7,697 nt of DNA from Pseudomonadota bacterium. GTDB taxonomy: Bacteria; Pseudomonadota; Alphaproteobacteria; Rhizobiales; Hyphomicrobiaceae. Shown one piece after another: positions 426 to 887 of this stretch. The notes below the pieces were generated by a model. That model saw only the letters and a program-made list of their open reading frames with translations, searched no databases and had not been told where the DNA came from. The position numbers and the translations under genes are program-made. The first letter of the stretch is position 1. Each line of letters opens with the position of its first letter. The stretch lies in contig JAKAML010000054.1 in assembly GCA_021812845.1 (NCBI GenBank), forward strand, positions 1 to 7,697, read 5' to 3'.

Positions 426-887
426 GTGTCGGGGCCTGCTGAAAAGCTGTCTTTTGCGGTCTCGCGAGGCGATGGCGATACGATCGACTCGGCCTGGGAG
501 GAGATCTGGGCCGGTGCGGACGGTGACGCAGTCGCGCGCAAGGAGCGGGGGTCGATGCTACGAAGCCTACCGCTCATGCTGTTGCACGAGCTCCTTGTCG
601 CGCCGGGGCACCATGTCCACCAGCAGGTGGCGATGGAAATTCAACAGCGGGCCGACCCGTCGTCGCTTTCGGTCGTCGCTCGGGTTCTCGACGGTGGCTT
701 TCAAAGTCTTACCTACACATGCTCGGATGACAAGACGATCGCCAAATGGTTCGGGCACATCCTCGCTCGCATCGGCACACCGGAAGCCGTCGCCATGGTC
801 AGCCACTACGCACGCAGCGACAACCCAGGAATAGCAGCAGAGATGCAGTACCGCCTCGAACGCATTCACCAGCAGGTGGCACGATGA
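426..887 (+). CDS. Small HEAT-like repeat protein inserted between nuoK and nuoL (function unknown)
   Basis: A 153-residue soluble protein with no signal peptide or membrane segment. It appears almost wholly alpha-helical: a Trp/Glu-rich helix near 19-30, helices near 36-58, then two HEAT-like helical hairpins at about 62-91 (turn at ADPSSLS, 76-82) and 101-130 (turn at IGTPEA, 116-121), and a last helix at 134-152. The turn motifs resemble small HEAT-repeat proteins that I recall near polymorphic toxins, some thought to be immunity proteins; this is pattern recognition, not a search. Start is GTG 426 (AAGGG 8 bases upstream); an in-frame ATG at 555 with a strong AAGGAG would give 110 residues. 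The gene begins 4 bases after nuoK and overlaps nuoL by 4 bases, so it should be co-translated with complex I. By my count 43 of 153 codons end in A or T (third-position GC about 72%), against 6 of 102 in nuoK, which suggests later acquisition. It is not a known Nuo subunit. It could be an orphan immunity-type protein, a lineage-specific assembly or accessory factor, or a passenger. Confidence 0.8.
   Translation: MSGPAEKLSFAVSRGDGDTIDSAWEEIWAGADGDAVARKERGSMLRSLPLMLLHELLVAPGHHVHQQVAMEIQQRADPSSLSVVARVLDGGFQSLTYTCSDDKTIAKWFGHILARIGTPEAVAMVSHYARSDNPGIAAEMQYRLERIHQQVAR
540..557 (+). promoter_or_regulatory. Internal Shine-Dalgarno and alternative ATG start in the HEAT-like gene
   Basis: AAGGAG at 540-545 is a near-perfect Shine-Dalgarno sequence, 9 bases before the in-frame ATG at 555-557 (codon 44). 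It is the strongest such element around this gene. A product from here would have 110 residues and keep both HEAT-like hairpins. The stretch between 426 and 555 has the same unusual codon use as the rest, so it probably arrived with the gene; whether it is translated is unclear. Confidence 0.45.
618..631 (+). repeat. 14-base direct repeat, copy 1 of 2
   Basis: CACCAGCAGGTGGC, identical to the copy at 867-880 and 249 bases (83 codons) apart, so both are read in the same frame and encode His-Gln-Gln-Val-Ala (residues 65-69 and 148-152). An extra C at 617 makes a small stem CCACC/GGTGG around the loop AGCA. Copy 1 is followed after one base by an ATG in frame with the gene. Confidence 0.7.
867..880 (+). 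repeat. nuoL: 14-base direct repeat, copy 2 of 2, containing the nuoL ribosome binding site
   Basis: This is the second exact copy of CACCAGCAGGTGGC. It lies at the end of the HEAT-like gene and contains AGGTGG (874-879), 4 bases before the nuoL ATG at 884 and the best Shine-Dalgarno candidate for nuoL. The repeat therefore serves as coding sequence and probable initiation signal at once. Confidence 0.65.

Follow-up and report, generated by a model that had tools for sequence, protein, structure and literature searches.

The 7,697-nucleotide contig analysed here (JAKAML010000054.1 of assembly GCA_021812845.1, a member of the Hyphomicrobiaceae; hereafter the window) carries a small extra gene inside the nuo operon, exactly between nuoK and nuoL. 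This arrangement raises the question of whether the inserted gene serves complex I, or whether it came to the operon as a mobile gene with a function of its own.

An additional gene between nuoK and nuoL

On the forward strand of the window, nuoK (113..421; NCBIfam NuoK equivalog, 173 bits) is followed by an open reading frame for a HEAT-like protein of 153 amino acids (426..887) and then by nuoL (884..2833; NDH_I_L, 880 bits). A 4-base spacer (422-425) separates the nuoK stop codon from the GTG at 426, and at the distal end the TGA of the inserted frame and the ATG of nuoL share the sequence ATGA (884..887, forward strand). The position, spacer and overlap reported in the initial annotation were thereby confirmed, and the spacing and overlap agree with its proposal that the gene is laid out for co-expression with the complex I genes, translation itself being a prediction.

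The alignment with a relative, P0002 (71% identity over 99%, no frameshift), begins at residue 1 of the window protein and thereby supports GTG 426 as the start codon. Counting against this assignment, an internal ATG at position 555 is an alternative candidate with the stronger ribosome-site score (-8.1 versus -5.0), and the database version of the window protein (P0001; 110 amino acids, two contigs) starts there.

The codon use of the inserted gene had been described as unlike that of nuoK, and measurement gave 28.6% of codons ending in A or T compared with 6.8%. GC3 was 0.714 for the inserted frame versus 0.932, 0.943, 0.962 and 0.952 for nuoK, nuoL, nuoM and nuoN, and the minimum over 120 sliding 153-codon windows of nuoL, nuoM and nuoN was 0.895; the comparison set here is the nuo genes of the same contig. 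The host genome (G000) is a draft that is 54% complete and divided into 400 contigs, and the HEAT-like gene occurs in it as a single copy. A chimeric contig is an unlikely source of the insert, because both flanks match congeners (95% for nuoK, 86% for the start of NuoL) and the gene order runs on.

According to the proposed model, the inserted gene would be translated from the nuo mRNA by way of a possible ribosome-binding stretch within the end of nuoK, TGAAGGGT (411..418, forward strand), which lies 7 nt ahead of GTG 426 and has a predicted duplex score of -5.0 with the anti-SD octamer. A second predicted stretch, CAGGTGGC (873-880, forward strand; score -5.2), lies within the end of the inserted gene, 3 nt ahead of ATG 884; the corresponding nuoL scores in five relatives were -4.9 to -6.8. 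The location of this site together with the ATGA overlap suggests that nuoL translation is coupled to the inserted gene, such that nuoL would be reached across the overlap. A stop codon or frameshift in the inserted gene would then yield less NuoL, and the frame would be kept as a hostage, since losing it would reduce NuoL. The initial annotation had read the keeping of the gene as a sign of benefit, an argument that is weakened because the predicted coupling would by itself penalise loss of the frame. The inserted gene also contains a 14-nt direct repeat, CACCAGCAGGTGGC (618..631 and 867..880, both on the forward strand), the second copy of which holds most of CAGGTGGC.

The nuoK-nuoL junction among relatives

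Searches for the window protein returned no match at E ≤ 0.01 in any of 102 other genomes of the family, which include three congeners (98%, 98% and 76% complete); weak matches with E values of 0.011-0.091 were present in ten of the 102. A four-row profile found nothing among the 396 other genomes of an order sample (E ≤ 1e-4) or the 384 others of a class sample (E ≤ 1e-6). With a 48-row profile, 4 of 397 other genomes in a phylum sample matched at E ≤ 1e-8 (E 1.4e-11 to 7.2e-16), one from the same order, one from the same class and two from elsewhere in the phylum, and two of these four matches contain an internal stop. Given these distant members in one same-order and one same-class genome, the gene may have come from within the class.

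We then compared the junction itself. Of 103 genomes, 92 yielded a nuoK match and 90 of these provided junction sequence (in G013 and G029 the match lay near a contig end); one junction (L097) ended short of nuoL, which left 89 values including the window and therefore 88 relatives. The HEAT-like gene was absent from all 88 measured junctions, and by this comparison it is not an old member of the operon. Its late arrival, as the initial annotation had proposed, is probable in light of the codon contrast and the absence of the gene from the relatives' genomes and junctions.

The nuoK-nuoL gap measured at most 50 bp in 52 of the 88 relatives, 51-250 bp in 29 and more than 250 bp in 7 (values are rough for the 9 of 88 in which the projected nuoL start was not ATG, GTG or TTG), and among congeners it was 9 bp (G093), 172 bp (G092) and 473 bp (G091). 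Eighteen of the larger gaps, including all seven above 250 bp, were inspected in detail. Four relatives carry at this junction a gene of the 23S_rRNA_IVP family (PF05635; 124-127 amino acids, 114-124 bits; L013 1862-2233, L061 352-726, L095 333-713 and L107 349-726): the congener G091, two genomes of one other genus (G050 and G051) and one of a further genus (G096). The four proteins are mutually 61-88% identical, and the inserts measure 459-475 bp with imperfect inverted repeats at their ends; IVP genes bounded in this way could represent a small mobile element outside rRNA genes. Several of the other large gaps resemble palindromic repeats. Judged from the IVP genes in four relatives and the HEAT-like gene in the window, the nuoK-nuoL junction takes inserts repeatedly.

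In a set of 40 relatives, picked to include the four IVP genomes, gaps longer than 50 bp occurred at 14/40 nuoK-nuoL, 4/39 nuoL-nuoM and 2/39 nuoM-nuoN junctions, or at 10/36, 2/36 and 2/36 when the four IVP genomes were left out (negative values of -43, -95 and -794 are start-mapping errors and were counted as short). The median gap was -4 for nuoL-nuoM, which usually overlap by 4 nt, and 13 for nuoK-nuoL, where there is a short spacer; this difference may account for the tolerance of inserts at nuoK-nuoL. One genome with an IVP gene at nuoK-nuoL (G050) also has a 654-bp nuoL-nuoM gap (L185).

A scattered HEAT-like family with an integron member

The initial annotation had called the product HEAT-like, and structure prediction followed by a fold search recovered helical repeats. 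The AlphaFold model of the window protein is all-helical (ten helices, pLDDT 95.8), and its best alignments were to alphaRep, HEAT and armadillo chains; the protein is thus predicted to form a solenoid of paired helices resembling HEAT and alphaRep proteins. The assignment stands by this predicted fold, the Pfam HEAT_2 match itself falling below the cut-off (18.5 versus 27.7 bits); HEAT_2 matches at E ≤ 0.01 were obtained for 38 of 48 aligned family members. Twelve alignment columns are invariant across the 48 members, and all 12 residues are present in the window protein. The best match in a sequence search of the PDB was deoxyhypusine hydroxylase (E 0.019); a chain named 'RhsFi' was rejected as a relative, its E value of 0.75 being at noise level. 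The best 50 matches of each fold search included no evident toxin-immunity pair.

The family is rare and scattered among the genomes searched. Its 12 named loci come from Janthinobacterium (two), Massilia, Xanthomonas (three), Tahibacter, Acinetobacter (two), Chitinimonas, Pseudoduganella and Runella, and no nuo neighbours were found in the inspected parts of any of them. In Janthinobacterium sp. FT58W the gene stands alone after glmS, and in three related genomes the 900 bases after glmS differ and do not contain it (present in one of four). In Pseudoduganella violacea (L143), a 100-amino acid frame occupies bases 184-487 past glmS, where FT58W has the HEAT-like gene. In Chitinimonas the HEAT-like part forms the C-terminus of an ankyrin-repeat protein. 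Runella has two paralogues, one of them fused to DUF4291, within a run of small genes on one strand, and the first paralogue lies ~6.7 kb downstream of a 2594-amino acid protein in which Pfam detects an RHS repeat and DUF6443. The Runella defluvii array (L202/L203) also holds DUF4291 and DUF3885 proteins and looks like a poly-immunity array. Scans for Rhs/VENN-type motifs across the 12 loci and 17 longer stretches returned none, with a scan that is insensitive, since Pfam found the RHS-repeat protein in one of the scanned stretches. Rfam gave no relevant family across 10 sources. Matches were likewise absent for the window protein in phage records, for P0037 and a Leaf148 homologue (cut by 8 residues) in plasmids, for the Janthinobacterium gene among E. 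coli genomes and for the HEAT-like family in viral contigs.

A mobile context was found in Xanthomonas sp. Leaf148 (L045). Here, the HEAT-like gene (5863-6321) is located behind ilvD (identified by eye) and an IntI remnant that covers residues 1-185 of 315 and scores 196 bits, under the 265-bit cut-off; the array also holds Barstar (56 bits) and a sub-threshold Imm26. A position of intI behind ilvD in Xanthomonas is described in two published studies (PMC12444791, PMC3826837). A covariance model built on seven attC sites of the Leaf148 array identified 17 sites on the plus strand of this locus, ten of which were outside the training set. One attC (5795-5854; 79.6 bits; a training site) stops 8 nt before the HEAT-like gene and another (6292-6348; 27.0 bits, E 1.7e-4; not a training site) overlaps its end. 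Because the gene lies between two attC sites, at least one member of the family is, judging by its flanks, an integron gene cassette.

Xanthomonas phaseoli ATCC 49119 carries two copies of equal score, at chromosomal positions ~31.7 kb and ~5158.5 kb (L204 and L206). Each copy is ~2.5 kb from IntI fragments, and the X. phaseoli attC at 5464-5522 of L046 does not directly flank the gene. In the window, the attC model run with filters off reached at best 7.3 bits, away from the gene, with no attC at the gene's 3′ end, a result that applies to the modelled type since other attC types could be missed. In nine further named loci the model detected no attC close to the gene; across 13 other loci it gave only two weak matches (E ~0.006), in the two Acinetobacter loci, ~4.6 kb off and on the other strand. 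No IntI scored above the cut-off in the 54% complete host genome. The accessible portions of the literature on nuoK-nuoL inserts, IVP genes, HEAT immunity and integrons described neither a HEAT gene within a nuo operon nor a member of this family carried as a gene cassette.

Possible roles of the inserted gene

The reading that we favour, with a probability of about one half, is that the inserted frame is a horizontally acquired single-gene stowaway whose product would neutralise a toxin-like partner and would probably not serve complex I. The gene would have arrived as a mobile single gene at the nuoK-nuoL junction. Imm-HEAT proteins of polymorphic toxin systems are proposed to bind a toxin partner (PMC3482391), and by analogy the HEAT-like protein would bind and neutralise such a partner; that it works as an orphan Imm-HEAT immunity protein is inferred more weakly. 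The initial annotation had likened the gene to those of toxin-immunity neighbourhoods, and this likeness held for two of the 12 named loci, namely the Leaf148 array with Barstar and the sub-threshold Imm26 and the Runella array downstream of the RHS-repeat protein; the genes scanned at the other loci included no such neighbour. In sequence searches the window protein matched no named Imm family, and no toxin gene was present in the window or, among the genes scanned, nearby in most of the 12 loci. Immunity proteins are often variable in sequence, and the strongly conserved core motif of the family therefore argues against the immunity reading.

The initial annotation had also suggested a lineage-specific protein that the operon recruited to assist or assemble complex I. 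This reading draws only on position, namely the exact placement of the gene on the same strand and its ATGA overlap with nuoL. We consider such a role improbable: the gene is missing from the three congeners, from all 102 other family genomes at E ≤ 0.01 and from every one of the 88 junctions measured, its relatives have no nuo neighbours in the inspected parts of other loci, and unrelated genes occupy the same junction in four relatives. An anti-phage rather than a toxin-immunity function would suit the patchy family and its one integron cassette member, and integrons are reportedly able to hold antiphage cassettes. However, a PADLOC search with the window protein was empty even at E ≤ 1, and across 48 members it gave single weak matches to three families (best E 0.0018); with no relative in phage records or viral contigs, this reading is scarcely any stronger.

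The gene might instead be a neutral hitchhiker, functionless in its host and heading for decay. The codon contrast suggests a late arrival, the gene is a single copy in one draft genome, and other junctions contain non-coding repeats, all of which would fit. Against this, the frame is open and full-length with the 12 family-invariant residues in place, it retains 71% identity to P0002 with no frameshift, and the predicted coupling to nuoL would preserve it; we regard neutrality as doubtful, albeit less so than the complex I and anti-phage readings. To the stowaway reading could be added a bolder one, which we put forward very tentatively: that in this bacterial family nuoK-nuoL is a recurrent docking site for single mobile genes (the HEAT-like gene here, IVP genes elsewhere), where a cassette gene fused by its stop codon to nuoL becomes addictive, since complex I could be made only while the gene goes on being translated, and an orphan immunity gene thereby gains permanent expression at respiratory level.

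At this locus, a relative of an integron-cassette gene sits inside a core respiratory operon, and in several relatives the same junction has taken up single genes unrelated to it. Should the coupling to nuoL prove true, it would offer a mobile gene a simple means of becoming difficult to lose. The locus also cautions that an extra gene in a nuo operon need not be a complex I factor.

Set against known systems, the window protein is alike in predicted fold to HEAT-like and alphaRep repeat proteins. Compared with the cassettes of the Xanthomonas ilvD integrons, among which the Leaf148 member is flanked by attC on both sides, the window gene lacks an attC and its end is fused with the start of nuoL. 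The 23S_rRNA_IVP genes share its junction and are of similar size, whereas they encode an unrelated protein family, have terminal inverted repeats that the window gene does not, and do not overlap nuoL as it does. Unlike Imm-HEAT genes, the window gene has nuoK and nuoL rather than a toxin gene beside it; nevertheless its product is small, soluble and of HEAT type, as those immunity proteins are, and members of its family occur in arrays, with Barstar in Leaf148 and downstream of an RHS-repeat protein in Runella.
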